IMG/VR virus record: IMGVR_UViG_3300020201_000001
Coordinates: 1 to 54,195 of that record
DNA length: 54,195 nt
Reading direction: 5' to 3' (one strand)
Source: a virus
Shown piece after piece: positions 17,996 through 50,703 of this stretch. The notes under the pieces were generated by a model that did not search any database, was not told where the DNA came from, and saw only the letters and a program-made list of their open reading frames with translations. Position 1 is the stretch's first letter. The number at the start of each line of letters is the position of its first letter. Position numbers and translations under genes: made by a program.

Positions 17996-20900
17996 ATGTC
18001 AAAGAATATTGTAGATCTAACACCTCCAATTAGTGGACGTGCCTTAGTTGAGACCATTCCTATTGTACCAACACGTAGAGAAATGTCCAATGCTAAAGAT
18101 GAAGCAATGCGGGAACAAGCGTTCTCAAAGAAATTGTTATTTGATGACAAAAGTGCAGAAGCAGTTGTTACAGGTAAAACAATGCTTAACCAACCTAACA
18201 TTAATAGGGATATACCTAAAACTGACAACACTCGCACTAAAGCTATTCCTCAACCTAAAAGCAAAACAAAGGATATACCAGGTGCAACGAAATTTGACTA
18301 TGTGGGGCAATCTAAAAAGGATGCAGAAGCCAAAGAAATGGATATAGGCTATGGTGATGATAAGTTAGACGAAGCACGCAAGATTGCTAACACACCTATG
18401 GCGAATCAAGAAAATGGTGAAATCTTTTATGACATACCAAAGATACAATCCGCACGTTTAGCTTTGCAAGGTAAAATAGACGAGCTTACTGCAAGCTCTG
18501 GTTTAACTGATAGTGGTAAAAGCCAGATGTTTACACAAGGTGCAAAAGACAATGGCATAATAGGTAAAGCAATGTTACCTTTCGTGCCTATTGCAGATAC
18601 GTTTGAGAACTTACAACAAAATTATTTACACCCAAAAAGAGAAGGTGCAGCACCATTAACACCAGACGATCCTAAGTACGCACAACGTAAAACAGAATAT
18701 CAATTAGAAGAATATTCTAAGATTATGAACAACTTAACGACACAGTATAATTATGCAAAAACGTTCCCTAATGGTAAAGTTGATTTCAGTCCACAAAGAC
18801 GAGTTGACGAGGGAGTTTCCAGTGCAGCGAAAAGTGTTGTTATGGGATATGTAGGAGACTTTGCAAATCATTTCACTGACGGTGGTGCTACTAAATTAAT
18901 GGAGAAAGTGTTTAGCACAGATGTAGCTACAGGACGTGCTTTGTTACAACAAGAATTAGAGAAAGCGAAAAGATTAGGTGGCAACAAACCAGACGAAATC
19001 ATACCAGAGTTAGGTATGACTTACAATCAGTTTGTCACAGGCTGGGAATCAGTACTTACCAATACTGGATTAGGCATAGTTAACTTAGTCAGCTCATTAG
19101 CACCAGGTGGTTCGTTTTCTACGGCAGGTGCAGTTGCTAATGATGTGATAAGCATAGCAAGTAAAGTAGTAAAGAGTGGAGCTAATGTAGTTAAAGAAAA
19201 GTTAGCACTAAGAACAGCTACTGCACTTGCAACAGATAAAGTTGTGTTTGACGGCATAGCTAAAGATATTGCTCTTAAAGCAGTGGATCCACAATGGGTG
19301 CAAAAGACAGAGCTATTTAGTCCAACGATTAAGAACATGATCGCCAAAGCACCAACAGATGCAGCAAGATTAGAAGTAGTAGAATTTGCCTTGAAAGACC
19401 AAACCTACAAAGTATTTAAACAAGTTTTTGCTGAAGCTAAGTTAGTAGGCAGAGCCTTGGAGCAAGCAAACATGTTAAAGTCAGCAGTTGGTCGAGTAAA
19501 CGGTCTTGGTTCATTGGATCAGCTTAGCAACATACTAGCCGATATTGTATCAGGCACTACAGCAACACAGTCTGAAGTGCTTGGCAAAATTGCCGTTGAC
19601 AGTATACGTATGTATTTAACAGGGTTGCTCAATACTGGCGACGCAGGAAGTGCAGAAAACTTAGCAACGTTAGGTGCGTACAGTAGTTTCTTTGGCACTA
19701 CAATGAAAAAATTAAGCATGACATACTTAGCGAAAAGTGATGCATTACGTCAAGCTATCGCACATGGTGATAGTAAATTAACCAATGACTTAATTGCTCA
19801 ATATCAAAAGACATCTCAATTATTTGCGATAATAGCGAATGACTTTGGTGGCGGTGGTGCACAGACAGTTGACGAGCTACGTAAGTTGGTAGGTAGTGAG
19901 GATATATGGAAAGAAATAGTTAAAACAGCGATGCCTAACTTCATTCTGGCACACGGTTCATTTACTTCGGCTAACAGATACATGAAAGAAAGAGGTCAAG
20001 ACGTACAGAACAAAAAGTGGGGGCTGGAGTTTAACAATGTGGTGGCAAAAGGAGCTCCAAATGTATCAGATGGTTTTGGGGGCACTGCCGCAAGTATAGC
20101 AGCCGGGAAAGATATAAGAGGCACAGTTGAAAGCACAGTTAACAAAGCATATCATGCTACTGCACCTGGCAAGCAAAAAGTAAGTATGGAAAAGTTTATT
20201 AAGGACAGTGCTAATCTATCAGGGATAAGTAAAAACACTGGCGAAATGAAAGTAGGTGAATTGCTTAACCTTTTAGAGAGATGGAAGAAAGAAGGTTTAC
20301 TGTCAAAAGATTTCAAAGTCTTTGACGAAGCTAACCATGTAAAAATTCTAAGTGGTATTCCAGCTGATACCAAAGTTGTATTCACCCAAGAAAACAAAAG
20401 CAATACTGAAAGCAAAGCTGAATACGATGCAACTACTAATACTATCAACTTCCATAACTTTGACTTTACAGGCACAGCACAGAACCCAATACGTCCAGAA
20501 GAAGTATTTAGCACAATAGCAGGCTTAATGAGTGAAGAGCTTACACACGCAGCTACAGTCCATAAAATTAAAGCTAACCCTGAAAAGATAGACGCTCTTA
20601 GACAAAAATATTTAGACAAGTTTAATGCTATGTACCCACCAGAAGTAGGACTTCCAGCAGATGCGGGTGCTATCCAATATGCATTAAGCAACAATGAAGA
20701 GTTTGTAGCTAATTTGTTTAATAACTTGCAAAGCCCACATTTCTTTAAATTTATTAAAGAAGCAGATAAAGCACAGAACGGTACAGTCAAAGCATTCTTA
20801 GATAACGTGTTGGATAAATTTGGCTTAGATGGTGCTGACCAAACGCTACGTAAAAACATATCTAAGATTATCTTAGACGTATTACCAGAAGACAGCAAAG

Positions 20901-23900
20901 AACTTTACACTAAACCACCACCAGCAACAAAGTTTACAGAAGAAGAAATTGGGGAGTACGCAAGTACATTAGAGCCACCAACGGTATATAGTGGCACTGA
21001 CTTAATAACAGTTGCTAATGAAACGGCAGCAAAATTTAATGAGCAAGGTAGTTCAGTCACTCCTGACGAGATATTACCTCAATCATTATTAGAAGCATTA
21101 CAAGTCCAACACAAGATTAAAGAAGACCAAGCTAACACAAGTGGCGTATACCCTGGTTTCTTCAAAGAAAGTAAGGATGGTACAGAAACATTAGCTTTCA
21201 ATGAAGAAGTAGAGAGATGGAACAGCATTCACCCAATCAAGATAACTAATGCACAAGCGTATCACATAGTCCAAAGTATCTTAGGCGAGCAAAAGTTTAC
21301 GCCTGAAATTGGTATACAAGTACTGAAAGAAATGTTGAACGAAAGCAGAACAGAACAAGCAAGCACAGTAAGACAATTGATCGAGGAAGTAGAATCCGAA
21401 GCAATACAAGCAGAAAGAGACTTTATAGAAGGTAAAGGTAAAGATGACAAAAGTGACTTGCGTGCTTATAAAGTATTAGGTTACGAAAAGGCGTCCGAAC
21501 TGTACGCAGAGCATTCAGCTGGTGCTAACCCAACAAAAACTCCAGCACAGGTGACTGCAGATGCATACAAAGCAATTATGGAAGGCATGAACAAGCAACT
21601 GAAAGAGCAGTATGGAGACAAAGAGATACCTACAAAAGAATTAGAAAAAGCAGAGATAATAGCAAAGAAAGAAAGTATCAAGTTATCAAATTCAGGCATG
21701 GTTACAGCATTAGATGGAGAACGTATTCCATTCTCTTTGATGAAAGGTTACCATAGAGCTTTAGATGGTGTCAGAAAACAGATAGGCGGAGGTTTAACTT
21801 ACGACAACAAACGTATCTTAGATGCCGTCCTTGATATATTCGCAGGGCTAAAACCAATAAACAAATATAACGTTGGTGATGGAATACAAACGGGTCGGTA
21901 TTATAGACCAGCTGGTGTAACCGATATGGCAATTGTATTGGACGAAAAAACTCCCGCACAGATACGAGTTATGACCCAAAAACTACATCAAGTTATAATC
22001 AATCATGCAGTAACGTCCGAAGCATTCTATCGTGGTTCTAAACATGACCCAGCTAAGGTAGCTAAAGCCGCACGGGAGTTAATGCCATTTGTTAATTATA
22101 AAGCAGTAGCAGAAGGCAAATCAAACTTTAATGACTTGTTCGTAGCAAAGTTAACTTCTAAACATTATGGCAAAGAATATGGTGATACGGATGCAAGATT
22201 AAAGAAACTGCAGACAGAACATAGTGATGTCTTACAAGAAGTAATAGATAATTTAAGTAGCCTATACGACAACAAAGGGTATAATCCTCATGAAGGCAAA
22301 GATGGACCTTTAACGCCCGATGAAGCTACGGCATTCCAAAATGGTCTTCATGGTATAATGAACTTGACACTTAATCCAGGTGGCAATGATATGATTGCCA
22401 AAAGAATTACAATAGATGAGAATGGTGTTATATTCAGAGACCCTGGTAAAATATCAGCTAAGTATATTAAGTTAGTCATAGACAATAACACGTTTAGGAT
22501 GACTGACGTTGCGAACATAGGTTTATATAATCCATTGTTAATCAAAGATGGTAAAGTTGATGCAGAATATTTAGCAGCAGAGTACCCAGACTTAGCTTTA
22601 TTGCCAGATGGTAACTTAGCGTTTAAATTAATCAACACAGAACAATTCTTGCCTTACTTAAGCCCTGAATTAAAAGATTGGTTGTCAAGTGTTGCAGGCA
22701 AAGACACACAACGTATTGATGGTGGTATTATCGCAATAGGAGAAATGCCAGGTGTAAAATTATTAGCTACAGCAGTAGGAGGAGGAAAAAACAGTGCTTT
22801 CTTTAAAGGAAAAGGTACAGGATTATTTAAAAACGCTATACACAACGTGGCACCGTCCGAAGTTGTCCACCCTGATACGCCTGGGTATAACAGTATTAAA
22901 AGTTTTGCTGAAAAAATAACCAAAGCTGGGATCCAAATTCATGATGGTACTTCATTGAAGAATACTGCAGAACTGTACGAATATCACAGGATGCCATTGC
23001 CTAACATGGAGGGCAATTTAACAGCGTTACTGGACAATAGTGGTACGATTGTATCAATTTTGGATAATAAAGGCTCTAACGTGACGGCAGATGCCAAAGA
23101 GAAGGTTTTGAAAGCATTGGCATACGAGTTAGAAACTACTGGTAAGTTACCAGATCAAATGATAACCAAACAACCGATTACAGGGGAACACGCTTTAACT
23201 CTCATGACAGCTGATAAAGAAGGTAAACATAATGCAGGTGGTGTTGTACATCCTGGCATTATTAATTTAGTGCCTACTGGTCGATTAGGATTTGACGTAA
23301 AACCAGACGTAATCGCAAAATACACACAAGCTATTAGTGATTTAACTGAAAATAATTTCAAGCATTTCTCTAAGCAACTTGATGGTGTAGCATCTATTGA
23401 AAGAATGTTAGTAGAGCTATCACAAGGTGAACACATCACTGGCACGAAAGCTGAATTAGGTGCATTACAGAATACTGTTGAAGGTTTAGAAGCTATGCTT
23501 AACGAAAATCCTGATATTCTATATCGTGGAGTACCAGGTACCAAGTTACTTGCAGAAATAGATGGCTTGTTTAAGACAGATGATTTAGGTAAAAGATTAG
23601 TGCTTGATAAAGACCAAGTAGAAAGTTTCTTGATAGATCGTTTCAAATTGTTCACTGGAAAATCTACAGACATAAGCAGTCCTTCATCGAAGAAAGAAAA
23701 TTGGGTTACTACAGATTCAATATTGTTTGATTTAGCGAAACGCTCTTATGATAGCATACAAAAACTTCATGCAGTTAACGGTAGCAATTCAATGTCGGTT
23801 TCACCTAATTTTGGAGATAGTAGATTTGCTATCGAAAGATTAGTAGGCAAAGGTGGTATGGCTGACGAATTAACCAAAATGTTTATTGATCCAAAGAATG

Positions 23901-26900
23901 GCAATATTATCAATATGGGTATAGCTTTGCCTTTGAAGTTTATTAAAGATAATAACCTTCAACCAGGTCAAAGCATACTTGTTTCAAGAATACCAGCACA
24001 TGACACAGGGAGTACCACTGTAATGACTTTAATAGGTGCAACTGATTCTCACTCTACTATCCATGCTGATTCTGAATACCTAACGGGCAGTGCGGGTATG
24101 GATTTCGATAAAGACAGTTTGCAAATCTTACTTCCAGATCCCCACATATTAACTAAGGATATTTACAAAGCTATGATTGACTACATAGGCGACGTTACCA
24201 AAGATACAAGTAAGTTATATCCTGACATTATGAAAATAGATAGCACTGGTGAGCTTGATAGAATATATAAAGAACTGGGATTGTCTCACTTGTTAAAAGA
24301 CGTTTCACATAGCCCACTTAGTAGAGATGCTTATAACAAAGGAGATAATGGCACAGCTTTAGCAGGTGCAGCGGTGAGTTTGAAAAAATCAATTGCATTA
24401 ATAGCAGCCGCTTATGCAGCTACTGGTGAAGTAAAAGGTGATTATAGATACGTAACAGCGAAACGGGGAGACATAAAGTTAGTGCTTAAATTCCCACTGA
24501 AACCAGATATGATGACGGCTATTGCTAATGCGGCAGCACAATTAGGGTACGACAATTTCGCAGGTCATCACATAAAAGAAGAAGCTAACATTTTAATGCC
24601 ATATTTACACTCAATTACGTTTGGAGAAGGCAAGACACATACAGGCAAAGATTTAGGCGATGAAATGGTTATGAGGAAAATTGGCTCAACTGTACGTGAA
24701 TTAGCACACAATGTTAAGATGGAAAATGCACAAGGTGTAGATGAACCCACCCATCAATTTGGTACACAAGGGAATAATGCGGCACGTGCTTTAGTCGAGC
24801 ATAATATGATTCAGTATGGCAAAAGGTTAAAGCAGTTAGACGAGACATTAAAGTTTTTGAATATGGACAGGCAAATCCAAACTATAATAAACTCAAACAG
24901 TATAGCAATAGGTAAAAAATTACAGCTATTTAACCTTATGTGGCATAAAAATGCAGATTCACCTGAATTACTGGGAACGTTAAACTATCTAAGAGATGCT
25001 ATTAGCACACAGTTCAATAGCTTGGGAAGAAAAGGAGAATGGAAGACGGGTGGTGTGACAAAGTCTGTCTCTTCATTACTGTATTATAATGACGCATTTA
25101 AACATCTTCCAGCAGCGATGATGGTATCGGGAGCACGACAGTTAGCAAATGGCACAGAGATTAGATTTGGTGAAAACATTGCCATTATTACAAGTGCAAA
25201 AGAAGTCAAACTGAATGGTGAAACTGTACCATTTGAACAATTCTTAGTAAAGTATGGGAAAGAAGGAACACGTAAAGATGCAGAAGCATTGCACATACTA
25301 TATTATGACCAAAACATAAATGGTAAAGGCAAAGGTGGGATAACATATAACCGTATGCAAACAACCATAGATGGATTAATTGCAGTAGTGGGACGTAAAG
25401 TAAAGAACATAGACGATTACGCCAATTTAGGCGATTTAAGAGTAGGAGACGACCCAAATGATGTAACACTTAATACAATCAAAGAAATCGCCACCAGGGT
25501 CTTCTTTGGTAGCGATACCCCTCTTATAGATAATAAACAGAACTTTAGTTTACACAATGAAAACGGTTCTGGAGCTGAAGCGTCCCGACGTGCTTTAGAA
25601 CGGGCAGGTATCGTACCTAAAGTTCATGGCGTTTCTGTTGCGGATATGGCACGTGATGAATTCAAAAAGACGTTAGCTACCAAAGAGCAACCAAATGATG
25701 TACATGGTGCTTTCGCATTTGGTAGAGCTTCAGATCAAGGTTCCAATATTTTCGATAACCCAAAGACAACTTACGATGAATTACGTAAAGCATTAGTTAA
25801 CCATCCAGAGATAGCTAATAAACCTGTCACTAAATGGACGGCAGAAGATTTTAGAATAGCTAAACCTATCATAATGGCTCATGCAGCAAACAAAGTACGT
25901 GCTTTAAAAGGTACTATTATGCCAAGTTTATGGAAACAATTCTTTGCATTGGCAAGTCCTAAAGGTAGTGAGATTGGCAAACCATGGGATAGTGATCCTG
26001 AACATAAACATACCCAACATGTTATTGATGAAATAGGTGAATTATTAGATTACGATTATTTGCGGAATATTGAATCACAGGAAACTTTAAAGAATGGCAA
26101 AGCATTAGCTCAATTGCAAACTTTACAGATGTTACCGCATGCAGTGCAAAAGCTTAACGATATGATGAAAGCTCAAGGCTATAACGAAGTTAATAATTAC
26201 ACAGGTACACTAGACCTTAATAGCCAATTAACATACTCAAGCTACAACCAAACTTTTTCTGACCTTGACCAAGACATAGGCTTCACGAAAACGTACGGAC
26301 CAAATGGCTTTACGGAATCCAGGGTACGTGCATTCTCGATGAATTTAAATAGACGTTTAGGAATAAACCTTGACAAAGTACATACAACAGTGCAATACAA
26401 ACAGTTTCTACATGACGCTAAAAATATGTCGTTGATCAAAGATCAAATCAATATGTTCTTAGGTAACTACAACAATGCAGACAAAGGATATGACGTTAAC
26501 CAAACTTTACCAGTATTGTCAAAAATACTCAAATCACCAACGCTTAAGGCTATGTTCGATGCCGTTATCACACCTGACTATTCAGTTAGCACAACGAATA
26601 TATTAGCACAAGGTAAATTAGGGGGTGTTCATATTGACTATAATTTACCTGACGCAGTGCAAGCTAGAAAAGAAAACGTATTAAAGGGTTTGTCGAAGGA
26701 GATATTCAATGCCTTCAAGAAACAGCAAGTTAACCTTGTAGATGGCTTTGATATGGAAGAGACACAAGCAGCAATGAACTTAGGTGAGATAACGCTTGCT
26801 GACATTAAAGACGCATTGTCTATGTACACAGACCAAGTATTGCTTAATAATACATTGAGTGTTGGTCTGGACGTAATTAGTGACAGCATAACTAACCTTA

Positions 26901-29900
26901 TAAATAAAAACAGTCAGTACGCAGATGTAGCTTCGTATACCGTCATACAAGAACAATTAAAAGCTACTATAGAAAGTTTGCGTAATCCATCGGATATGGC
27001 TAAATGGCACACCACACAAGCAGTTAGCACTGACATGTTAAACAACACTCAAACATTGATTGCAGAGATAGGTGCATCAAGCTCGGCTGAAATTTACGAA
27101 GCACTTGTTAAGACAGGCAAAATACCATTCAAACCAGATCACGAATTCGAAGACGAAATGGGTGCCAAAGATGACGCACTCAAAGGTTTGCAACAATTTC
27201 TATCAGGTAGCAAAACTAACTTCAAAGTAAACAAAAGATTTAATGATGGCTTAGTGCCAGATAAAGAGCGAATGGAGTTCTCTAAAGAAGATGTAAAGAA
27301 TTTGATGGAAGCATTGCCACTTGACCGAATAAAAACAGTATCAACAGAAACACAAAGCATGATGGACGCAGAAACAGAGATGGACGCTTTAAGGGCAGAA
27401 GAAGAAGCACGTTATGCAGAATCTATGGGGATTGCAGTTGAGGCGAAAACACCACAACCAACAGAAGCACTCAAACCAGCAAGGACATACATAGATACAA
27501 CAGCAGAAGTGATGTACGATGCTAAGTCATACAAAGAAAATCTGATTAACCATTTACAAAAAACATTGCTTAATGTGAACACTGTATCTAAGAACATTTT
27601 CAATGATAACTATAATGAATCTGAATTTGCACGTGCTATTACCAATACGTTATTTAGTGAATATGCTGGGAAGGAATTCACTGATGACTACGTAATCAAA
27701 AGCACTAAGACTCCAGATGGTTTAACAAGGATGTTCGACGATCCTGACAAAGAAATACCAAAAGGACAATACGTAGAATTCCTGCATGCGGACAACAATG
27801 GTATCGACAGTCAACATGCACGTTATCTTGGTATTGTCAAACGTAATGTAGCTATCAAAGATATTGAAGGTAATGTAACCAACGTACCTAAAAATTTAAT
27901 TGTTTTACTTGTTGACAATGGTAGCCGTGCTAGTATAAGTCTTGTTGAGGAGAAAGATATTAAGACGATGACTGCACAAATGAAAGTCAGCAGATCTGGA
28001 CAAAAGCAAGAGAAAGTTATCAAAGAATTCTTTGATAAAAACAGCAACCAATTGATGGAAGATATTAGAACTTACGTGGACACAGCCGCATGGGAGGAAG
28101 GATCAAAGGGCAGGTACAAAGAAGTAAACTTAGGTCACTCGGCACAACCAACTACTTTGTTCTCACAAGGAACACCTTTGATTAATATGTCACGTACTTC
28201 TAAAGATGCTGAAAAAACTTTACTAACTACTTTGAATAAATACTCAACCACCATAGCTTATTCCTTATTTGGGCGAGGCACACAGACTGCAACGGTAGGC
28301 TTAGCTTTAATTGGAGTGAGTGCATTGACTTCACTAACTCCAGCGTTAGGCATAGGAATGATTGCGGCAGGTGCAGCACAAATAGGTAAAAGAGGGTTTA
28401 AACTATTCGTTGATGGGCAAGTAGGAAGTACAGGAGCAGCGATACAGCATGACGTATTCGCAAAAGATTTTATTACCCAAGCAACTAATATGTTCAATCA
28501 CTTATGGTCACCTAAAACACTTAATGAAACGACTGCAATACGAGCAGTAACCCAAGTAGCTATCGCAGCCGCAATAGAAGAAGCAGGTGTAGAAAAAGAC
28601 ATAAGCAAAGTAGATTCGTTTTATCTTGCACAACAAGCACGTGAAGAAATCAAAGCATACAACCGCATAGAGAATTTTATCGGTGATGGTTTAGGATCGA
28701 AAGTTAACGACGAAGGAATAGCTAAACTAAAAGAAGAATACGCTTTGAAAGGAATGGACGTAAATTTCACTAAGATAGGTAAAGATGGTTATGCTTTAAA
28801 AATCAATGATCATAGCTATCAAGACATGCAAAAAGCTAACAAAACATATTTAGACTTAATGTTGAATGCATTACACGCAACTGGTTTCCAAGCTAAGTTA
28901 GAAGCAACCAGTACTGAAAAAGCAATGGCAATAGCGACGCAAGTTAATAGAGCACGACAAACAAAGTTTAAAGAGATATTTGGAACAGATGTATCTTATT
29001 CTGAAGCAGAAGTATTAAACTACATTGATTACTCAACCAAAACAGCATTAGGTTCATTTGTTAAGTCAGCTAAGCAAGCGACACCATTTGGACGTTTCAT
29101 CACCCAATTCCAACGTTACCAAAGAGAAGCGGCAGTAGATCAGTATAACTTGTTTAAATACCGTAACGAGCTTTATACAGCTGTAGAAGATGACATTTTG
29201 TATTGGAGTGCGAAAGCAGGGGCAGGAGATAGGAAATCACAACAACTCCTGGACATATTAGAACAAGTAGGTTTGGTATCCGCAACTGACATGACTGGTT
29301 CAATGAGTAAGCTAAAGAACAGAGCTTATGCATTAAATACAGCCGCTGGTTTATTATCAGGTGGTGGTAAATATTTAGGTGTAATGGCATTAAACCAATT
29401 TAACCAAATACTCAATGGTGATGATGACGACGAAGAAAAAGGGACAGGTCAGTTAATTGGAAGTGCGATAGGCAAAGAATGGCTAACAGAGAGAGACCAA
29501 GATATGCGACCATATTCTGGTATCTATCAAGGTGGTGCAACTGGTTTGACAATGGCAACTGTACTCGCAGGTGTGTATGGAATGTTCAAGACTGCCGTTG
29601 ATGTAAAGACTGATGAGGACATAGATTTACGTAGACATACTAAAAACCTTAAATTAGTAGAAGGTCTTACAGCACCACTTAAGTACGGATTAGGCATGAC
29701 AGCTATCACAGCACTGAATACTAGTCTTGTTGCTTTTTATGCAAGCATACTAAACCACGTAGATAAAGGTAAAGGATTTACTGAAAAAGAGAGAACTAAT
29801 CCAAATTATTATCTTAACTTTGTAATGAACAAAATAGCACAAGCATCACAAATGTTCCCGTTCGCAGCTTTAGCCACAACTTATGTGAATGAACAACTTA

Positions 29901-30025
29901 AAGTCAATAAGACAATAAAAAACAATGATAGTTTTTTCAAGAAAGCAACAACAGGCAACCCACTGCCGATGAATGAAAAGGAAGGTAGTGAAGGTAGTGA
30001 AGGAGAAATCGAGGTAATTCGATAA
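17996..30025 (+). CDS. Giant virion protein with crAss-like double-psi beta-barrel RNA polymerase motif
   Basis: 4009 aa, nearly a quarter of the genome; ATG preceded by AGGA. From the N-terminus: about residues 1-330 low complexity and helical; 330-400 contains a hydrophobic stretch; 800-930 a zincin-like region with EELTHAAT (847-854) and, about 50 residues on, NNEEFVANLF (899-908), where a metallopeptidase would have HExxH and a downstream Glu, though here the first His is Glu. At 1998-2040, SRIPAHDTGS is followed by SAGMDFDKDSLQ, with the aspartate triad D2036, D2038, D2040. In crAss-like phages the equivalent motif (SRIPTQ..., GADFDIDKL) is the catalytic loop of the virion RNA polymerase. 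NKGDNGTALAGAA and the GHHIKEEANIL element follow. Residues 3420-3470 are Gly/Ala-rich hydrophobic, and 3696-3709 (TPFGRFITQFQRYQ) matches ejection-protein polyvalent modules. Likely packaged in the capsid, injected, and active in early transcription. Confidence 0.75.
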   Translation: MSKNIVDLTPPISGRALVETIPIVPTRREMSNAKDEAMREQAFSKKLLFDDKSAEAVVTGKTMLNQPNINRDIPKTDNTRTKAIPQPKSKTKDIPGATKFDYVGQSKKDAEAKEMDIGYGDDKLDEARKIANTPMANQENGEIFYDIPKIQSARLALQGKIDELTASSGLTDSGKSQMFTQGAKDNGIIGKAMLPFVPIADTFENLQQNYLHPKREGAAPLTPDDPKYAQRKTEYQLEEYSKIMNNLTTQYNYAKTFPNGKVDFSPQRRVDEGVSSAAKSVVMGYVGDFANHFTDGGATKLMEKVFSTDVATGRALLQQELEKAKRLGGNKPDEIIPELGMTYNQFVTGWESVLTNTGLGIVNLVSSLAPGGSFSTAGAVANDVISIASKVVKSGANVVKEKLALRTATALATDKVVFDGIAKDIALKAVDPQWVQKTELFSPTIKNMIAKAPTDAARLEVVEFALKDQTYKVFKQVFAEAKLVGRALEQANMLKSAVGRVNGLGSLDQLSNILADIVSGTTATQSEVLGKIAVDSIRMYLTGLLNTGDAGSAENLATLGAYSSFFGTTMKKLSMTYLAKSDALRQAIAHGDSKLTNDLIAQYQKTSQLFAIIANDFGGGGAQTVDELRKLVGSEDIWKEIVKTAMPNFILAHGSFTSANRYMKERGQDVQNKKWGLEFNNVVAKGAPNVSDGFGGTAASIAAGKDIRGTVESTVNKAYHATAPGKQKVSMEKFIKDSANLSGISKNTGEMKVGELLNLLERWKKEGLLSKDFKVFDEANHVKILSGIPADTKVVFTQENKSNTESKAEYDATTNTINFHNFDFTGTAQNPIRPEEVFSTIAGLMSEELTHAATVHKIKANPEKIDALRQKYLDKFNAMYPPEVGLPADAGAIQYALSNNEEFVANLFNNLQSPHFFKFIKEADKAQNGTVKAFLDNVLDKFGLDGADQTLRKNISKIILDVLPEDSKELYTKPPPATKFTEEEIGEYASTLEPPTVYSGTDLITVANETAAKFNEQGSSVTPDEILPQSLLEALQVQHKIKEDQANTSGVYPGFFKESKDGTETLAFNEEVERWNSIHPIKITNAQAYHIVQSILGEQKFTPEIGIQVLKEMLNESRTEQASTVRQLIEEVESEAIQAERDFIEGKGKDDKSDLRAYKVLGYEKASELYAEHSAGANPTKTPAQVTADAYKAIMEGMNKQLKEQYGDKEIPTKELEKAEIIAKKESIKLSNSGMVTALDGERIPFSLMKGYHRALDGVRKQIGGGLTYDNKRILDAVLDIFAGLKPINKYNVGDGIQTGRYYRPAGVTDMAIVLDEKTPAQIRVMTQKLHQVIINHAVTSEAFYRGSKHDPAKVAKAARELMPFVNYKAVAEGKSNFNDLFVAKLTSKHYGKEYGDTDARLKKLQTEHSDVLQEVIDNLSSLYDNKGYNPHEGKDGPLTPDEATAFQNGLHGIMNLTLNPGGNDMIAKRITIDENGVIFRDPGKISAKYIKLVIDNNTFRMTDVANIGLYNPLLIKDGKVDAEYLAAEYPDLALLPDGNLAFKLINTEQFLPYLSPELKDWLSSVAGKDTQRIDGGIIAIGEMPGVKLLATAVGGGKNSAFFKGKGTGLFKNAIHNVAPSEVVHPDTPGYNSIKSFAEKITKAGIQIHDGTSLKNTAELYEYHRMPLPNMEGNLTALLDNSGTIVSILDNKGSNVTADAKEKVLKALAYELETTGKLPDQMITKQPITGEHALTLMTADKEGKHNAGGVVHPGIINLVPTGRLGFDVKPDVIAKYTQAISDLTENNFKHFSKQLDGVASIERMLVELSQGEHITGTKAELGALQNTVEGLEAMLNENPDILYRGVPGTKLLAEIDGLFKTDDLGKRLVLDKDQVESFLIDRFKLFTGKSTDISSPSSKKENWVTTDSILFDLAKRSYDSIQKLHAVNGSNSMSVSPNFGDSRFAIERLVGKGGMADELTKMFIDPKNGNIINMGIALPLKFIKDNNLQPGQSILVSRIPAHDTGSTTVMTLIGATDSHSTIHADSEYLTGSAGMDFDKDSLQILLPDPHILTKDIYKAMIDYIGDVTKDTSKLYPDIMKIDSTGELDRIYKELGLSHLLKDVSHSPLSRDAYNKGDNGTALAGAAVSLKKSIALIAAAYAATGEVKGDYRYVTAKRGDIKLVLKFPLKPDMMTAIANAAAQLGYDNFAGHHIKEEANILMPYLHSITFGEGKTHTGKDLGDEMVMRKIGSTVRELAHNVKMENAQGVDEPTHQFGTQGNNAARALVEHNMIQYGKRLKQLDETLKFLNMDRQIQTIINSNSIAIGKKLQLFNLMWHKNADSPELLGTLNYLRDAISTQFNSLGRKGEWKTGGVTKSVSSLLYYNDAFKHLPAAMMVSGARQLANGTEIRFGENIAIITSAKEVKLNGETVPFEQFLVKYGKEGTRKDAEALHILYYDQNINGKGKGGITYNRMQTTIDGLIAVVGRKVKNIDDYANLGDLRVGDDPNDVTLNTIKEIATRVFFGSDTPLIDNKQNFSLHNENGSGAEASRRALERAGIVPKVHGVSVADMARDEFKKTLATKEQPNDVHGAFAFGRASDQGSNIFDNPKTTYDELRKALVNHPEIANKPVTKWTAEDFRIAKPIIMAHAANKVRALKGTIMPSLWKQFFALASPKGSEIGKPWDSDPEHKHTQHVIDEIGELLDYDYLRNIESQETLKNGKALAQLQTLQMLPHAVQKLNDMMKAQGYNEVNNYTGTLDLNSQLTYSSYNQTFSDLDQDIGFTKTYGPNGFTESRVRAFSMNLNRRLGINLDKVHTTVQYKQFLHDAKNMSLIKDQINMFLGNYNNADKGYDVNQTLPVLSKILKSPTLKAMFDAVITPDYSVSTTNILAQGKLGGVHIDYNLPDAVQARKENVLKGLSKEIFNAFKKQQVNLVDGFDMEETQAAMNLGEITLADIKDALSMYTDQVLLNNTLSVGLDVISDSITNLINKNSQYADVASYTVIQEQLKATIESLRNPSDMAKWHTTQAVSTDMLNNTQTLIAEIGASSSAEIYEALVKTGKIPFKPDHEFEDEMGAKDDALKGLQQFLSGSKTNFKVNKRFNDGLVPDKERMEFSKEDVKNLMEALPLDRIKTVSTETQSMMDAETEMDALRAEEEARYAESMGIAVEAKTPQPTEALKPARTYIDTTAEVMYDAKSYKENLINHLQKTLLNVNTVSKNIFNDNYNESEFARAITNTLFSEYAGKEFTDDYVIKSTKTPDGLTRMFDDPDKEIPKGQYVEFLHADNNGIDSQHARYLGIVKRNVAIKDIEGNVTNVPKNLIVLLVDNGSRASISLVEEKDIKTMTAQMKVSRSGQKQEKVIKEFFDKNSNQLMEDIRTYVDTAAWEEGSKGRYKEVNLGHSAQPTTLFSQGTPLINMSRTSKDAEKTLLTTLNKYSTTIAYSLFGRGTQTATVGLALIGVSALTSLTPALGIGMIAAGAAQIGKRGFKLFVDGQVGSTGAAIQHDVFAKDFITQATNMFNHLWSPKTLNETTAIRAVTQVAIAAAIEEAGVEKDISKVDSFYLAQQAREEIKAYNRIENFIGDGLGSKVNDEGIAKLKEEYALKGMDVNFTKIGKDGYALKINDHSYQDMQKANKTYLDLMLNALHATGFQAKLEATSTEKAMAIATQVNRARQTKFKEIFGTDVSYSEAEVLNYIDYSTKTALGSFVKSAKQATPFGRFITQFQRYQREAAVDQYNLFKYRNELYTAVEDDILYWSAKAGAGDRKSQQLLDILEQVGLVSATDMTGSMSKLKNRAYALNTAAGLLSGGGKYLGVMALNQFNQILNGDDDDEEKGTGQLIGSAIGKEWLTERDQDMRPYSGIYQGGATGLTMATVLAGVYGMFKTAVDVKTDEDIDLRRHTKNLKLVEGLTAPLKYGLGMTAITALNTSLVAFYASILNHVDKGKGFTEKERTNPNYYLNFVMNKIAQASQMFPFAALATTYVNEQLKVNKTIKNNDSFFKKATTGNPLPMNEKEGSEGSEGEIEVIR

Positions 30026-30440: not shown

Positions 30441-30728
30441 ATGTGGGAGCTGATATGGTTTATCCTTAAGCAACCTATTACAATCATTAAATTAGTAGTC
30501 AAAATACTCACAATCATAAATTCATTAAAGGATAGAACAATGAAAGATTTCAAAACAACAGCTCTAAGCATACTACAAGCATTGGTATTATTAGGCTCAT
30601 TGTTTGGCGTACAGGTAGCACCTGAATTACAAACAACAATCATTACGTTAGCAACGTCTGCTTATGCAGTACTTGGTGCAATAAAAGGTTTCTTCACCAA
30701 AGATAGCATACCACCAACGGCAGCGTAA
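30441..30728 (+). CDS. Putative holin with possible dual start
   Basis: 95 aa from ATG 30441 (AGGA at 30431-30434, 6-base spacer), 13 bases after the previous stop. A second in-frame ATG at 30541 has its own AAAGGA (30527-30532, 8-base spacer) and would give 62 aa. The long form adds a hydrophobic, Lys-containing segment (LIWFILKQPITIIKLVVKIL). Both forms share two hydrophobic segments (LSILQALVLLGSLFGV and TLATSAYAVLGAIKGFF) and a short polar tail, the shape of small class II holins. Two starts giving proteins with different N-terminal membrane segments recall holin/antiholin pairs. The stop overlaps the TerL start (TAATG). No holin family match can be claimed. A longer reading from 30252 would run through the preceding gene and is unlikely. 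Confidence 0.55.
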   Translation: MWELIWFILKQPITIIKLVVKILTIINSLKDRTMKDFKTTALSILQALVLLGSLFGVQVAPELQTTIITLATSAYAVLGAIKGFFTKDSIPPTAA

Positions 30729-32602
30729 TGAATCAATACAATCTACAAACACTACTGGATAGAGTTGCAGATAATACACATAGCCCTAATGATATGAATT
30801 CGTTAGGGCTATTGTATTTTGCTAAGACACACTTTCCAGAGATATTCAGAAATGAATGGGCACCTCATCATTACGACATGTGTCAAATGTTCTTTGCATT
30901 GTTATCACCTAACCTAAAACGTAGAGACGAAAGATTAGCTTACTTCTTAGTACATAGAGAAGCAGCTAAAAGCACAGTAGGTACGTTCTTATTTCCTATC
31001 TTCAATATCTACTGCAAAGGTTTAAAGGTATGGACAAGGCATAACGCTTTAGGGTGGGAAGGTGCAGACATACATGATCATACGTATGAAGAAGTAACTA
31101 TAGGCGAAGACTTCATGGTAATAACGTCAGAAACGAGCGGACAGTCTGAAAGGTTCGTTAGTGATATAAAAGCTATAATAGAAGAAAGAGATGACTTAGC
31201 ATCTATCTATGGCGAAAAAAAAGGTAGTCTAATAGAGCTTGAACCTGGACAAAGACGTAAAGACCAAAAATGGACGCAAACAGCATTTCTTACATCAGAC
31301 AATACAGTTGTATTAGGTGCAGGTTCTGGACAACGTATTCGTGGACTAAAGATACGTGGACACAGACCTTCATTCATAATGATTGATGACATGTATTCTA
31401 GGCTTAATACTAAGACAATGCAAACAAGAGAGAACTTAAACAATTGGTTCTTTTCAGATCTACTTAAGAGTGCAGATAGTGAACGTGCTAAGATATTATG
31501 GTTGGGTACAATGGTACACCCTGATACAGTAGTTAAACGTTTCAGACAGACCACAGACTGGCATGGCATTGAACGTCCTATTATTTCGATAGATGAATTG
31601 CAAGTAGGTTTACAGAACTGCTTAGTCAATGGTGAGCCTGACAAACCATTGTGTAATACTTGGCAAAAAACAATGACTACATTATCATGGCCCGATAGAC
31701 ACACTTTGTATGACATACTAAAACTATACACAAACGATGCTTTGTTAGGACAACTGAATTACTTCTACCAAGAGTATATGAATGAATCATTAGCACCAGA
31801 GAACAAGCTAATTGATCATGAAGCATTTGTACGTACTAATATCACCTACGAAGAGGAAGGAGGTAAAAGCTATGTAACGTTCTTCTACGAGCATATAGAA
31901 TGGCGTGGTGAAGTTCTATTAAGCTTAGCATGTGACCCAGCGGCAAGTGCAAGTGAGAGAGCAGATGATACTGTGATTATGGTAGGTGGTTATGCACGTT
32001 GCTTCCCAAGAGCAGTAGGTACACCATACGAGTTACAAGAATTAGGTATGCCTAATGGACGTATATTCCCTATCCTACTACATATTGAAGGTGGTAAGTA
32101 TTCAACTTATGACTACAATGAAATGCCAGGTATATGTGAAGCTATCTTAGCTTTAGATAAGAGATACAAATTAGACATGATTAAGATCGAAGCTAACGGT
32201 CAACAAGCACAGATAGAACGTGAGGTACGTCGAAGTATGCTTGAAGGTATTTACAAGCAAGGAGAGGTGGTTAAAAGCTCATTTAGAAGCACACCAGTAT
32301 GGGCAGAGTATCAAACAAGTGATAAAAAAGAAAGAATTATAACCACAGTGTTGTCAATCGTACAAGCACACAAAGTATTTATTTGCAATGACAACAAGCA
32401 CATAGACAAACTATACCTACAGTTGATAGCTATTAGTTTAGCTGATCATGATGATTACGCAGATGCTTTAGCAATGGTATTTAAAGGTGCTAGCATACCA
32501 GCGGTCTATAACTTACACGTTTGGCAGAACGGAGAAGACCAAGTAGATAGAGTAGAACAATTAAAAGAAATTTATGGTATGGATTATTGGATGTACTTAT
32601 GA
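30728..32602 (+). CDS. terL: Terminase large subunit (TerL)
   Basis: 624 aa. The ATPase domain has a Walker A of the terminase type, HREAAKST (K81, S82), and a Walker B, FIMIDDM (D220/D221). The C-terminal RNase H-like nuclease has the first Asp in SLACDPAAS (D403) and the closing acidic motif DDYADALAM (D579). It cuts concatemeric DNA and pumps it into the prohead through the portal. It starts by overlapping the holin candidate (TAATG) and its stop overlaps the next gene (ATGA). All catalytic positions I expect are present. Confidence 0.95.
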   Translation: MNQYNLQTLLDRVADNTHSPNDMNSLGLLYFAKTHFPEIFRNEWAPHHYDMCQMFFALLSPNLKRRDERLAYFLVHREAAKSTVGTFLFPIFNIYCKGLKVWTRHNALGWEGADIHDHTYEEVTIGEDFMVITSETSGQSERFVSDIKAIIEERDDLASIYGEKKGSLIELEPGQRRKDQKWTQTAFLTSDNTVVLGAGSGQRIRGLKIRGHRPSFIMIDDMYSRLNTKTMQTRENLNNWFFSDLLKSADSERAKILWLGTMVHPDTVVKRFRQTTDWHGIERPIISIDELQVGLQNCLVNGEPDKPLCNTWQKTMTTLSWPDRHTLYDILKLYTNDALLGQLNYFYQEYMNESLAPENKLIDHEAFVRTNITYEEEGGKSYVTFFYEHIEWRGEVLLSLACDPAASASERADDTVIMVGGYARCFPRAVGTPYELQELGMPNGRIFPILLHIEGGKYSTYDYNEMPGICEAILALDKRYKLDMIKIEANGQQAQIEREVRRSMLEGIYKQGEVVKSSFRSTPVWAEYQTSDKKERIITTVLSIVQAHKVFICNDNKHIDKLYLQLIAISLADHDDYADALAMVFKGASIPAVYNLHVWQNGEDQVDRVEQLKEIYGMDYWMYL

Positions 32603-33371: not shown

Positions 33372-33491
33372 TATAACAGTTTCTAAATATTTTATGTAAT
33401 CATACACGTCTTGTGTAGCCCTGCAATCTATACCACCACATTTATCAATAGGATAAACTGGTGGTATGATTTTAATGTCATTTATCTGCAT
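33351..33491 (-). CDS. Small hypothetical protein (46 aa)
   Basis: 46 aa read from ATG 33491 to TAA 33351. It overlaps the end of the upstream minus-strand gene by 14 bases, as neighbours in this operon do. The protein has a CGGIDC motif (two Cys, residues 18-23) and a helical C-terminus (VYDYIKYLETVIRELM). No clear ribosome site, so translation would rely on coupling. Codon use and the lack of any other feature in this gap support it. Its 3' end contains half of the terminator stem. Function unknown. Confidence 0.5.
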   Translation of the reverse strand: MQINDIKIIPPVYPIDKCGGIDCRATQDVYDYIKYLETVIRELMPT

Positions 33492-33762
33492 ATCGTGACG
33501 TTAGCCAAAACTTCAAGGTCTTACGACCAAAGTATTCTATTAGTGCGTCAAATCCACCAGCATGAAAAAGCAATCCATCATCATAACTCTGCCAAGTCCA
33601 ACTTAATTTCTGGCATAGTATATCTTCATCAGGTGAGTAAATTAACACCCATTTCGATTGCATCTCATCCGTCCAGTCTACTTCCCAATTCGCACGTGCG
33701 TTTATTGAGCGTATCATAGCTCTAACTTCTTCATCCAATGCTTTCCATATCAAGTTACTCAT
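33478..33762 (-). CDS. FKFWLT-family protein (minus-strand member 1)
   Basis: 94 aa, start overlapping the upstream stop (ATGA), with AGAGGGAA as ribosome site. It is the short form of the repeated family: an N-terminal helix (IWKALDEEVRAMIRSIN), ANWEVDWTDEMQSKW, and the closing LKFWLTSR. It closely matches the gene at 34193-34483 (WEVDWTD/WKIDWTD, CQKLSW/IQQLSW, FHAGGF/FYEGGF), so those two are recent duplicates separated by a longer family member. No catalytic residues or membrane segment. Function unknown. Confidence 0.75.
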   Translation of the reverse strand: MSNLIWKALDEEVRAMIRSINARANWEVDWTDEMQSKWVLIYSPDEDILCQKLSWTWQSYDDGLLFHAGGFDALIEYFGRKTLKFWLTSRYADK

Positions 33763-34196
33763 AGTGTTCCCTCTTTAGTCAGCCAAAATTTGAACTCCTC
33801 TTGAGTGTAAAGTGTGCGTAGTATCTGTATTGTGTCGTAAGAGAAATACAAACTGTTGTCTTGTGATTGAAACCAGCTGGATACAATAACATCAAGGCAA
33901 CCAGCCCTTCTATTCCAAACTAAATAACATTTCCCTTGCTCATTATCATGCCAGTCTACCACCCAATTATCTTCTTTGCGAAGGATTGCAATTGAACGTA
34001 GGATTTTTGTATTTAATAAACGCCATTTATATTCCAAATCTGCTTCTTGTTTTGTTGCATAGTAATTGCCAGAATTGAAGCGAGCTATATCAGAATCATA
34101 ATTATTCCAAATACTTCTCCGCACCACATCAAGTATAGTCCAATACTTTGTGCCATCTTCAGGATATACTAATTCTTCGTCTGTTAATTTACTCAT
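33759..34196 (-). CDS. FKFWLT-family protein (minus-strand member 2, long form)
   Basis: 145 aa. Long-form member: an N-terminal YPEDGTKYW element, FNSGNYYATKQEADLEY, then LNTKILRSIAIL, NWVVDWHD, and C-terminal LYTQEEFKFWLTKE. These are the same blocks, in the same order, as in plus-strand members more than 3 kb away, up to the one at 43407. It is coupled at both ends to its neighbours by ATGA-type overlaps. No function can be assigned. Confidence 0.8.
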   Translation of the reverse strand: MSKLTDEELVYPEDGTKYWTILDVVRRSIWNNYDSDIARFNSGNYYATKQEADLEYKWRLLNTKILRSIAILRKEDNWVVDWHDNEQGKCYLVWNRRAGCLDVIVSSWFQSQDNSLYFSYDTIQILRTLYTQEEFKFWLTKEGTL

Positions 34197-34483
34197 AGTT
34201 CTCTCTTCCTAGTTATCCAAAATCTCAAGTTTGCATGACCAACGTATCCTCTTAGTTTTTCAAATCCACCTTCATAAAAATACAATGCATCATCATGATT
34301 TTGACTGGACCAACTCAATTGCTGAATTAGTTTACTCTCATCATGTGAGTAACATACGTTGCATTTTGTTTGCGTTCCATCTGTCCAGTCTATTTTCCAA
34401 TTCGCATTTCTGTTTAGTATACGTATATTTTCCCGTATTTCTTTATCCAATTCTTCCCATGTCCAATCCCAAATACTTATCAT
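34193..34483 (-). CDS. FKFWLT-family protein (minus-strand member 3)
   Basis: 96 aa. Short form beginning with an acidic-basic helix (TWEELDKEIRENIRILN), then NWKIDWTDGTQTK and the C-terminal NLRFWITRK. Closest relative in this genome is the gene at 33478-33762. Start overlaps the stop of the upstream gene (TAATG on the minus strand). Unknown role. Confidence 0.75.
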   Translation of the reverse strand: MISIWDWTWEELDKEIRENIRILNRNANWKIDWTDGTQTKCNVCYSHDESKLIQQLSWSSQNHDDALYFYEGGFEKLRGYVGHANLRFWITRKREL

Positions 34484-34719
34484 TACGCTTCCTCATAATC
34501 ATGTAAGAAACTACATAACACTTCATGTATCTCAAGTTGAGCTGCATAAGCATCTTTCTCATTACTGAATACATAAGCTTCTCCTAAACATTCTTTCAAT
34601 GCAAACAATAACTGACTTTCATCTTCTACTGTAATTATTGCATAATCTCGTGTTATCACATATAACACACCTACTTGTTCTAACTTGACAAGCCATTGGT
34701 TAAATTTACTTAAACTCAT
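34483..34719 (-). CDS. Small hypothetical protein, first gene of minus-strand operon
   Basis: 78 aa, ATG 34719 preceded on the minus strand by AGGATAATGAA. Compact alpha/beta-looking protein (VGVLYVITRDYAIITV, then acidic helices), not a member of the FKFWLT family. It leads a tightly overlapping operon of five genes that ends at the terminator near 33336. No family recognised. Confidence 0.7.
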   Translation of the reverse strand: MSLSKFNQWLVKLEQVGVLYVITRDYAIITVEDESQLLFALKECLGEAYVFSNEKDAYAAQLEIHEVLCSFLHDYEEA

Positions 34720-34738
34720 TTCATTATCCTATTATTAT

Positions 34739-34767
34739 AAAAAAAGGTAAGCTACTTGCCTACCTTT
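34739..34767 (-). terminator. Minus-strand terminator after the gene at 34777-35073
   Basis: On the minus strand AAAGGTAGGC and GCTTACCTTT form a 10-bp stem with one G-T pair and a 5-base loop, followed by a run of T (A-run 34739-34745 on plus). It separates the 35073 gene from the five-gene operon starting at 34719. Confidence 0.85.
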
Positions 34768-34776
34768 TATTCACTC

Positions 34777-35073
34777 TTAACTAATCAAGCTCAACCATTC
34801 AGGTGCTTCACTTAAACTAATTGCATCAACTATCTCTCCAGTCGCCTGTATCGTATGTTTCTTCACTGTCACTAATCTACCTGCAAATGTCTTTCCATCA
34901 TACTTAGATAGAAAGTTATATGCAGTCTGTCTGTTTGGATCTATCTCTAACTGTCTTTGAGATAAACTGATTGAACATTCTGTATTGATCTTATTCATAT
35001 ACAATGCTCCAGTTGATAACATACTGTCATATACAACTGTTTCTTCTGCCAATGTTAAATTACTCTTAGCCAT
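34777..35073 (-). CDS. Hypothetical protein, paralogue of the gene at 35819-36121
   Basis: 98 aa. ATG 35073 is preceded on the minus strand by GGGAAGAG; an upstream ATG at 35109 lacks a ribosome site. It aligns along its length with the 100-aa protein at 35819-36121: STGALYMNK/SSGTLNENK, LSQRQLEIDPNRQTAYNFL/LSKPALQFNPGKQKAYDFL, TFAGRLVTVKKHT/TFAGYTVTKKTHT. It has its own terminator and an iteron-like repeat just upstream. Single-gene units with private control sites suggest strong, separately regulated expression. The fold looks small alpha/beta; function unknown. Confidence 0.75.
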   Translation of the reverse strand: MAKSNLTLAEETVVYDSMLSTGALYMNKINTECSISLSQRQLEIDPNRQTAYNFLSKYDGKTFAGRLVTVKKHTIQATGEIVDAISLSEAPEWLSLIS

Positions 35074-35120
35074 AACTCTTCCCTTAAATAAATACTTGCT
35101 ATCATACATCTTATGATAAT

Positions 35121-35145
35121 CAAATAAAAGAAAAGATCCCAGACA
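35121..35145 (-). repeat. Iteron-like repeat, copy A
   Basis: Minus strand reads TGTCTGGGATCTTT, then an AT-rich TTTTATTTG end. It shares a continuous 14-base match with the copy at 36221-36246. It lies about 50 bases upstream of the start of the gene at 34777-35073. Confidence 0.7.
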
Positions 35146-35210
35146 CTACCACAAAAGCAAAGAGCGAAGCAGACCCACGTATACCTATTTGCCCCATTAA
35201 AGCCCCTCCC

Positions 35211-35240
35211 TTGCATTATTAACCCTAACCTATACATTTG
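35211..35240 (+). promoter_or_regulatory. Bacteroidetes-type promoter, plus strand, inside the control region
   Basis: TTG (35211-35213), 19-base spacer, then a perfect TAnnTTTG (TACATTTG, 35233-35240). It would start RNA near 35246, reading into the AT-rich, GTGC-repeat region with no plus-strand gene before 36800. Possible origin primer or antisense RNA. Confidence 0.45.
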
Positions 35241-35243
35241 TAT

Positions 35244-35251
35244 CAAATATA
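35244..35251 (-). promoter_or_regulatory. Possible minus-strand promoter -7 box for the gene at 34777-35073
   Basis: The minus strand reads TATATTTG, a perfect TAnnTTTG, about 170 bases upstream of the 35073 start. No good -33 TTTG is seen at the right distance, so this is weaker than the plus-strand site beside it. Confidence 0.3.
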
Positions 35252-35495
35252 TACTTTATTCTGTCTCACGCTTGTTATATCACTACACTATACTCTCTAT
35301 ACACATACATACATATATTAATTATATATATATCATATACTTATATACTTATATAGTTATACTTATATATATATATATTATTATTATTATATATACTTAC
35401 TTATATACTTACTTACTTACTTATTCATATACTTATTAACATATATAAATATAATTAGTATATATAGATAATAATGATTATTAAAGAATATCAAA

Positions 35496-35519
35496 GTGCG
35501 TGCGTGCGTGCGTGCGTGC
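35496..35519. repeat. GTGC tetranucleotide repeat (6 units)
   Basis: Six perfect tandem GTGC units, a strictly alternating purine-pyrimidine tract in an otherwise A/T-rich region. Such tracts can adopt left-handed DNA and are prone to slippage. Confidence 0.95.
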
Positions 35520-35557
35520 AATAATATTTAATACAAGATTCGGTGTTTATATCCATG

Positions 35558-35577
35558 TTATGCACAAGTTATCAACA
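35558..35577 (+). promoter_or_regulatory. Pair of DnaA-box-like sites
   Basis: TTATGCACA matches the TTATNCACA consensus exactly. TTATCAACA, two bases further on in the same orientation, differs from TTATCCACA at one position. They flank the AT-rich tract on its right side. Confidence 0.45.
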
Positions 35578-35603
35578 CAACTAACCATCTAACCAAACAA
35601 TAC

Positions 35604-35631
35604 AAAAAAAGAGTAGCATTTCTGCCACTCT
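35604..35631 (-). terminator. Minus-strand terminator after the 34-aa membrane protein gene
   Basis: On the minus strand AGAGTGGCA and TGCTACTCT form a 9-bp stem (one G-T pair) with a GAAA loop, followed by seven T. Separates the small gene from the candidate origin. Confidence 0.9.
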
Positions 35632-35634
35632 TAG

Positions 35635-35739
35635 TTATTTAGATAATCCTTCTGCTACAATTATAGTAAGCAAGAAGAATATATACGATACACAAAACAG
35701 TAAGAAACCTAATTGTGCTTTGCTGAAATACTTTAACAT
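35635..35739 (-). CDS. Small membrane protein (34 aa)
   Basis: ATG 35739 on the minus strand, preceded by GGAGTTATT (5-base spacing), and stop at 35635, with a strong terminator directly behind it. It has a basic N-terminus (MLKYFSKAQ) and one strongly hydrophobic segment (LGFLLFCVSYIFFLLTIIV), then a short polar tail. The good ribosome site and private terminator make it a convincing gene despite its size. Single-span early phage membrane peptides often act on the host envelope or exclude other phages, but the sequence does not show which. Confidence 0.7.
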   Translation of the reverse strand: MLKYFSKAQLGFLLFCVSYIFFLLTIIVAEGLSK

Positions 35740-35775
35740 AATAACTCCATGAATAGAGATGAATAAAAACTTATC

Positions 35776-35812
35776 AAAAAAAAGAACAGATGCCAAAATG
35801 ACATCTGCTCTT
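35776..35812 (-). terminator. Minus-strand terminator after the gene at 35819-36121
   Basis: On the minus strand AAGAGCAGATGTCA and TGGCATCTGTTCTT form a 14-bp stem (two G-T pairs) with a 3-base loop and a following eight-base T-run. Lies six bases after the stop. Confidence 0.92.
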
Positions 35813-35818
35813 TAATAA

Positions 35819-36121
35819 TTATAAGCCTGCTGCTATCATCCAGTCAGGTTTAAAATCTGGATTGATTAACACAACTGCTTCACACTCTTCTTTAGTACTA
35901 TAGACAGTATGAGTTTTCTTAGTGACTGTATAGCCAGCAAAAGTTTCAAAACTACATAGGAAATCATAGGCTTTTTGCTTGCCAGGATTAAATTGCAAAG
36001 CAGGTTTGCTTAATGCAATGTACAGTTCGCCATTCGATTTGTTTTCGTTTAGCGTGCCGCTGCTTAATAACAACTGCAATACTTCTTCTTGTGATTTAGA
36101 CACAACTTGAGACTTAGACAT
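35819..36121 (-). CDS. Hypothetical protein, paralogue of the gene at 34777-35073
   Basis: 100 aa. ATG 36121 has GGAG five bases upstream on the minus strand; a longer reading to 36175 would skip that site. Clear paralogue of the 98-aa protein at 34777-35073 over most of its length, including a QKAYDFL/QTAYNFL block and a TFAG-x3-TxKKxT block. It has its own strong terminator, and three iteron-like repeats lie within 170 bases upstream. The pair flanks the candidate origin, which would suit an origin- or DNA-binding protein; that is only a hint. Confidence 0.75.
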   Translation of the reverse strand: MSKSQVVSKSQEEVLQLLLSSGTLNENKSNGELYIALSKPALQFNPGKQKAYDFLCSFETFAGYTVTKKTHTVYSTKEECEAVVLINPDFKPDWMIAAGL

Positions 36122-36171
36122 AAAAACTCCGTAAATAAATAAATAATGGAGCAACGATACATTCGCTACTC

Positions 36172-36200
36172 CCAATAAACAGATAGTAAGAGACCAGACA
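36172..36200 (-). repeat. Iteron-like repeat, copy C
   Basis: Minus strand TGTCTGGTCTCTTACTATC followed by a TGTTTATTGG end. Same core (TGTCTGG ... CTCTT ... TTTATTG) as copies A and B, in the same orientation, 51-79 bases upstream of the 36121 start. Confidence 0.7.
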
Positions 36201-36290: not shown

Positions 36291-36301
36291 ATAGCCCCCT
36301 C

Positions 36302-36375
36302 TATAGCGATAGCACGGGGTAGCACGAGTATGTCATATTACGAAGTAATATGGCATACGAAGTGGCATCGCTATA
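36302..36375. repeat. Long inverted repeat with internal hairpin 1
   Basis: Outer arms TATAGCGAT (36302-36310) and ATCGCTATA (36367-36375) pair perfectly. Nested inside are GTATG/CATAC and a perfect 8-bp hairpin CATATTAC-GAA-GTAATATG (36334-36352). The result is a long interrupted stem. No coding capacity. Confidence 0.8.
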
Positions 36376-36441
36376 CAGTTGTACGTAGTGGGATGCACAA
36401 CGAGTACGTCATATTGCGAAGCAATATGGCTTACGAAGTGG
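36325..36441. repeat. Direct repeat of a 41-base hairpin unit (36325-36365 and 36401-36441)
   Basis: The two 41-base units differ at only a few positions. Two of the differences fall at facing positions of the stem: TTAC/GTAA in unit 1 is TTGC/GCAA in unit 2, so pairing is kept by a compensatory change. Both have the same GAA loop. Conservation of pairing rather than sequence argues for a functional RNA or DNA hairpin. Confidence 0.8.
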
Positions 36442-38333: not shown

Positions 38334-38334
38334 A

Positions 38335-43248: not shown

Positions 43249-43249
43249 T

Positions 43250-43405: not shown

Positions 43406-43406
43406 A

Positions 43407-44518: not shown

Positions 44519-44527
44519 AGGCAAACA

Positions 44528-50694: not shown

Positions 50695-50703
50695 AAGGTA
50701 GTT

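Follow-up and report, generated by a model that had tools for sequence, protein, structure and literature searches.

A 4009-residue protein of an uncultivated 54-kb phage very probably contains a two-barrel RNA polymerase

An uncultivated phage encodes a giant protein of 4009 residues (positions 17,996–30,025, + strand) whose residues ~1480–2200 very probably form a two-barrel RNA polymerase, a distant relative of the cellular core enzyme. Most likely, this single-chain polymerase is made late, packaged, ejected and used to transcribe the first phage genes. The observations behind the assignment are homology across a family of phage giants, conservation of the catalytic positions and fold matches of the barrel type. 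The window, by which we mean the whole 54,195-nt stretch of DNA analysed, is IMG/VR virus record IMGVR_UViG_3300020201_000001, positions 1 to 54,195. Comparison of its ends revealed a shared 127-bp repeat, so the record is probably a complete circular assembly of about 54.07 kb. Fragments from metagenome 3300020203 (L022, L002) are ~94–100% identical to the window, so this virus or a close strain of it was assembled from that metagenome as well.

The giant gene is a single open frame with syntenic counterparts in relatives, and nothing points to processing of its product, which had been labelled a polyprotein. Single-sequence searches of Pfam, PHROG and PDB with the 4009-residue protein gave no match, and direct searches of IMG/VR and phage records with the polymerase region found no relatives. 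A terminase search led to one relative, G001 (TerL 40% identical), in which a 4480-residue giant with RTP...GTDYDKD occupies the same place and gene order matches that of the window for the head protein, the terminase and several further genes. Further contigs were recovered with DNA patterns for the head protein (DNNFTQE) and portal (FGTQR.KLY.R). The major head protein (21–1,433, + strand; weak match to phrog_1328) served as the marker, and its homologues in the recovered contigs are 36–45% identical. A second head-protein DNA pattern yielded unrelated contigs only, and no terminase relatives were found in the genome contig collection. Giants were found in G001, G004, G005, G007, G008, G010, G017 and G018, G004 being a near-copy of G008. 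This gave seven further divergent homologues from IMG/VR relatives, about 17–24% identical and 4158 to about 5270 residues long. The giants of G017 and G018 run across contig ends, consistent with circular genomes; the G017 protein measures about 5270 residues after discounting a 123-bp end repeat (5312 with it). Near-complete relatives are about 52–57 kb in size.

When a profile is built from the seven relatives alone, it matches window residues 1300–2064 (21,893–24,187, + strand) with E=1.1e-17 (hhalign). Within this region, SRIPAHDTGS occupies residues 1997–2006 and SAGMDFDKDSLQ residues 2032–2043. The preliminary description had named SRIP and DFDKD as the motif; both are present, SRIP (1997–2000) beginning one residue before the range then given, and the open frame confirms DFDKD at residues 2036–2040 (24,101–24,115, + strand), with D2036, D2038 and D2040 kept and Lys in the fourth place. 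Judging from Asp frequency, chance alone would place about one bare DxDxD in a protein of this length, and a lone copy is no evidence by itself. The motif is significant because homologues keep the triad: the three aspartates, whose loss among homologues had been named as counting against a polymerase, are invariant in all eight divergent giants. The loops read DFDKD in the window and DYDKD, DDDGD, DFDGD, DFDGD, DYDGD, DFDKD and DFDKD in the relatives, with Lys instead of the usual Gly inside the triad in the window and three relatives. An invariant proline lies ~36 residues upstream of the triad in 8/8 giants; in the window it is P2000 of RIP (residues 1998–2000; 23,987–23,995, + strand), which aligns with RRP of P23-45 gp64, RNP of P23-45 gp96 and RIP of crAss gp66. 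Fully conserved columns include K1485, K1489, Y1490, D1575, G1730, P2000, G2014, D2036, D2038, D2040 and D2186.

In two-barrel polymerases, the Asp triad lies in one barrel and basic residues lie in the other (PMC7824862, PMC10770324). We place a putative partner barrel (DPBB-A), containing D1575, K1604/K1606 and K1612, at residues ~1568–1735 (22,697–23,200, + strand) from conserved residues and motif. D1575, K1612 and G1730 are invariant in the eight sequences in two region alignments, and inspection by eye finds a second lysine a few residues upstream of K1612 in 8/8. A lysine had been predicted in the partner barrel, and K1612 fits that prediction. A further weak alignment segment, which follows the expected order, places the conserved lysine on a lysine of gp66. 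After the catalytic barrel, a GQDK/GKS-type segment, recognised by eye and by motif only, stands in the place of the bridge helix/trigger loop; like DPBB-A, these elements are putative, motif-based placements.

The catalytic barrel (DPBB-B) was assigned to residues ~1936–2066 (23,801–24,193, + strand) with the help of structure prediction. Two AlphaFold models built from eight-sequence alignments have mean pLDDT values of 44 and 47, a low confidence, with the catalytic-barrel block reaching 59–79 over most of its length in the second. In Foldseek searches of PDB with the first model, P23-45 gp64 came top of 350,542 chains (E=2.7e-3), and the top 25 include the AR9 and PhiKZ polymerases, gp96 and the double-psi N-domain of p97. 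Nearly all matches listed for the second model are RNA polymerase largest subunits or p97-type double-psi domains. Among BFVD matches, an annotated phage RNA polymerase comes first at 4e-5 and a crAss phage protein fourth at 5.7e-4. At these model confidences, good superposition extends over only about 80 columns. Since every single PDB match has an E-value above 0.001, the weight rests on the composition of the match lists, which suggests a barrel-type fold; the two-barrel arrangement is a prediction from low-confidence models.

Compared with single sequences of known enzymes, the family profile matches P23-45 gp64 with E=3.6e-5, gp96 with 1.1e-4 and crAss gp66 with 0.0036, the detectable similarity to the P23-45 enzymes being limited to about 90 residues. 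With the window left out of the profile, the values are 2.4e-5, 3e-4 and 0.025. In a blind scan of 91 open reading frames of at least 120 residues from the retrieved portions of the P23-45, phi14:2 and N4 genomes, gp64 ranked first, gp96 second and gp66 third, all aligned on DxDxD, and gp96 was found within its 5002 residues. Reversed-sequence controls stayed at noise level. The giant of Pseudoalteromonas phage Y3 (3421 residues; 48.9-kb genome), a phage reportedly derived from N4, was used as a negative control and gave no match to the family profile. Conservation, the partner lysine and the blind ranking thus agree with the earlier reading of the DFDKD region as the catalytic loop of a two-barrel RNA polymerase.

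By sequence, the nearest studied enzymes are the two of P23-45, of which gp96 is a virion RNA polymerase fused to the tape measure and gp64 is a non-virion enzyme (PMC10770324). Both resemble the window enzyme in being single-chain two-barrel polymerases with a GxDFDGD/GxDYDGD loop and an RxP ~35–40 residues upstream. Like the window protein, gp96 is a giant, of ~5000 residues; it also carries a metallopeptidase domain (PMC10770324), for which the window's family offers a counterpart at motif level. It differs in that its polymerase lies near the N-terminus, with DFDGD at 779 of 5002 residues against 2036 of 4009 in the window, and in being the tape measure of a very long tail, whereas no long-tail gene was recognised in the window.

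In the mechanism that we propose, one double-psi barrel would supply K1604/K1606 and K1612 and the other the Mg-binding D2036, D2038 and D2040, arranged as in cellular beta/beta', P23-45 gp64/gp96 and crAss gp66. The giant would be made late from the structural operon and packaged in the virion, and would leave it together with the DNA, with entry aided by the metallopeptidase-like part near its N-terminus and the hydrophobic part near its C-terminus. Once in the cell, it would transcribe the first phage genes until the host RNA polymerase takes over, with gp96, gp66 and the N4 vRNAP as analogues for packaging and first transcription. Gene position, protein size and this analogy make packaging, injection and first-round transcription probable; we infer both the activity and the genes transcribed.

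Because gp64 acts only after infection, a two-barrel fold does not imply packaging, and the window enzyme might instead be absent from the virion and be produced in the infected cell to serve middle or late genes. We regard this as unlikely, even though the closest sequence is that of a non-virion enzyme (PMC10770324): gp64 itself is compact, at 616 residues, while the window protein, with its 4009 residues, its place in the virion gene block beside the terminase and the metallopeptidase-like motif of its family, resembles gp96 and the crAss enzymes.

The polymerase had been described as 'of crAss-like type', and membership of the true crAss-like vRNAP family, in a reduced crAss-like phage, has some evidence behind it. 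The enzyme of Cellulophaga phage phi14:2, gp66 (PDB 6VR4), is a virion protein and has a similar loop, RIP...DFDID, the BFVD matches include crAss phage proteins, and the family matches a profile of eleven crAss-type enzymes with E=2.8e-4 on RxP...DxDxD. That profile takes in a protein of Flavobacterium phage Fpv1 (Fipvunavirus), a phage that is not placed in Crassvirales. However, in crAss enzymes the fourth loop position is Ile or Val, the match to gp66 is weaker than those to the P23-45 enzymes, and the TerL and portal families are shared with N4 and not with phi14:2. Genomes of crAss-like phages are ~100 kb long, and those of the window's relatives about 52–57 kb. We therefore consider true family membership decidedly improbable; by sequence, the enzyme does not appear to be crAss-like by descent. 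As for the earlier choice between a 'reduced or independent' lineage, an independent lineage of ~55 kb stands, and the reduced crAss phage fails on the same packaging families and genome sizes. The gp66-like region sits in crAss and Fpv1 proteins of about 4245–4946 residues, and given these examples a giant fusion of a polymerase region is not unusual. In Fpv1 (L018), a ~4401-residue virion structural protein has a gp66-like polymerase region with RTP...GLDYDID.

The giant gene sits between structural genes and the terminase, and the N4 vRNAP gene likewise lies among virion genes. The terminase large subunit just downstream (30,728–32,602, + strand) matches phrog_38 (E=3.6e-57) and also phrog_5573, and the portal protein (50,680–52,998, + strand) matches phrog_156 (E=2.4e-51); N4 TerL and portal match the same three families. 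The phi14:2 MCP, portal and TerL match phrog_11589, phrog_6547 and phrog_6681, against phrog_1328, phrog_156 and phrog_38 for the window. The window lysozyme is 30% identical to N4 gp61. By sequence, the packaging module is kin to that of N4-like phages; these PHROG families are broad, and we do not claim membership of Schitoviridae. A DnaB-type helicase and an exonuclease were also recognised, and no second RNA polymerase was found in the families searched, in a scan that took in part of the small open reading frames. The morphology is presumably that of a podovirus.

N4 too has a giant single-chain protein, packaged in its virion, but this vRNAP is T7-like, with a palm fold, and is unrelated to two-barrel enzymes (PMC7824862). 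The window giant has no significant match to the N4 giant, and the blind scan picked no N4 protein. Nor does the giant have a Pfam RNA polymerase match that would indicate a T7-like fold, and the fold lists are of the two-barrel kind. We tentatively suggest, at somewhat less than an even chance, that the window and its relatives form an undescribed ~52–57-kb lineage with N4-related packaging genes and a giant injected vRNAP of the two-barrel rather than the T7 type. A literature search of open-licence papers found no description of this phage group. If the suggestion is true, phages with related packaging modules have incorporated two unrelated polymerase folds into their giant ejected proteins.

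Outside the polymerase region, the preliminary description had seen 'ejection-type modules', for which the basis amounts to an HExxH-like motif, degenerate here, and one C-terminal hydrophobic stretch. HExxH with a downstream Glu is present in the N-terminal third of 7/8 family giants; the window has EExxH, the first His being lost in EELTH at residues 847–851 (20,534–20,548, + strand). A Pfam search of the giants for a peptidase domain found none, and HExxH is thus a motif-level assignment. The hydrophobic stretch, located by a Kyte-Doolittle scan, spans residues 3433–3451 (28,292–28,348, + strand), and some relatives have comparable stretches. The giant of G010 (L060) contains ART-PolyVal (PF18760, E=1.6e-9) and DUF7831 (E=4e-35) domains, and by sequence these appear to link the family to polyvalent proteins (PMC5512222), which the G010 protein resembles as a giant multidomain protein of injected type. 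Pfam finds no domain of either type in the window giant. A stretch of the same G010 region is 48–57% identical to jumbo-phage proteins; the many jumbo-phage matches to this region arise only through the inserted domain, probably DUF7831.

The polyvalent-type ADP-ribosyltransferase domain in one relative, together with DFDKD in place of DFDGD and EELTH in place of HExxH, could mean that the giant of the window phage is an injected polyvalent protein whose double-psi domain has decayed or been put to another use and lacks polymerase activity. This seems highly unlikely to us: all three aspartates and the partner lysine persist where other parts diverge very fast, the Lys variant recurs in three other members, and crAss gp66, whose loop is DFDID, is active (PMC10136315). 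Least credible of all is that an unrelated ejection protein has acquired DxDxD by chance, a reading which the empty single-sequence searches and the commonness of the bare motif would allow but which family-wide invariance, the blind ranking of proven polymerases and the fold lists disfavour.

Giant-protein two-barrel polymerases are a kind already known; what is new is one more phage background in which they very probably occur. Among the known relatives of the enzyme that transcribes every cellular genome, single-chain two-barrel polymerases are, to our knowledge, the simplest, and the solved single-chain virion examples that we know of belong to either of two backgrounds, the crAss-like phages or P23-45. 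Another background, represented by eight divergent sequences, would add a new outgroup for tracing how single-chain polymerases evolved, and a test case for how a polymerase protein of 4000–5000 residues is threaded through a phage portal and then refolded. If confirmed beside N4, giant ejected polymerases would have arisen more than once, from unrelated folds.

By analogy with N4, the window enzyme possibly starts at hairpin promoters. Two 42-nt repeats, each with an 8-bp stem and a GAA loop, lie at 36,324–36,441 (+ strand), in the gap before a + strand run of small genes. Their hairpins, CATATTAC-GAA-GTAATATG and CATATTGC-GAA-GCAATATG (36,334–36,352 and 36,410–36,428), differ by a compensatory pair, and they belong to a hairpin cluster at 36,295–36,485 with a single-strand fold z of −3.84. 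An Rfam search of the early region gave no match. A general excess of 3-nt-loop hairpins was not seen across the family, and we therefore keep the GAA hairpins only as possible early promoters. The early + strand run contains eight scattered paralogous open reading frames of about 118–211 residues, 29–49% identical (36,737–43,838), and at 44,297–44,767 two adjacent paralogues of 73 and 79 residues are 51% identical, with cysteine pairs that suggest zinc ribbons. On the other side, minus-strand small open reading frames with a 252-nt repeat (33,500 and 34,212) occupy 33,478–36,175 and face an AT-rich gap, which has ATATA runs and a GTGC repeat near 35,500 and is perhaps an origin or early control region.
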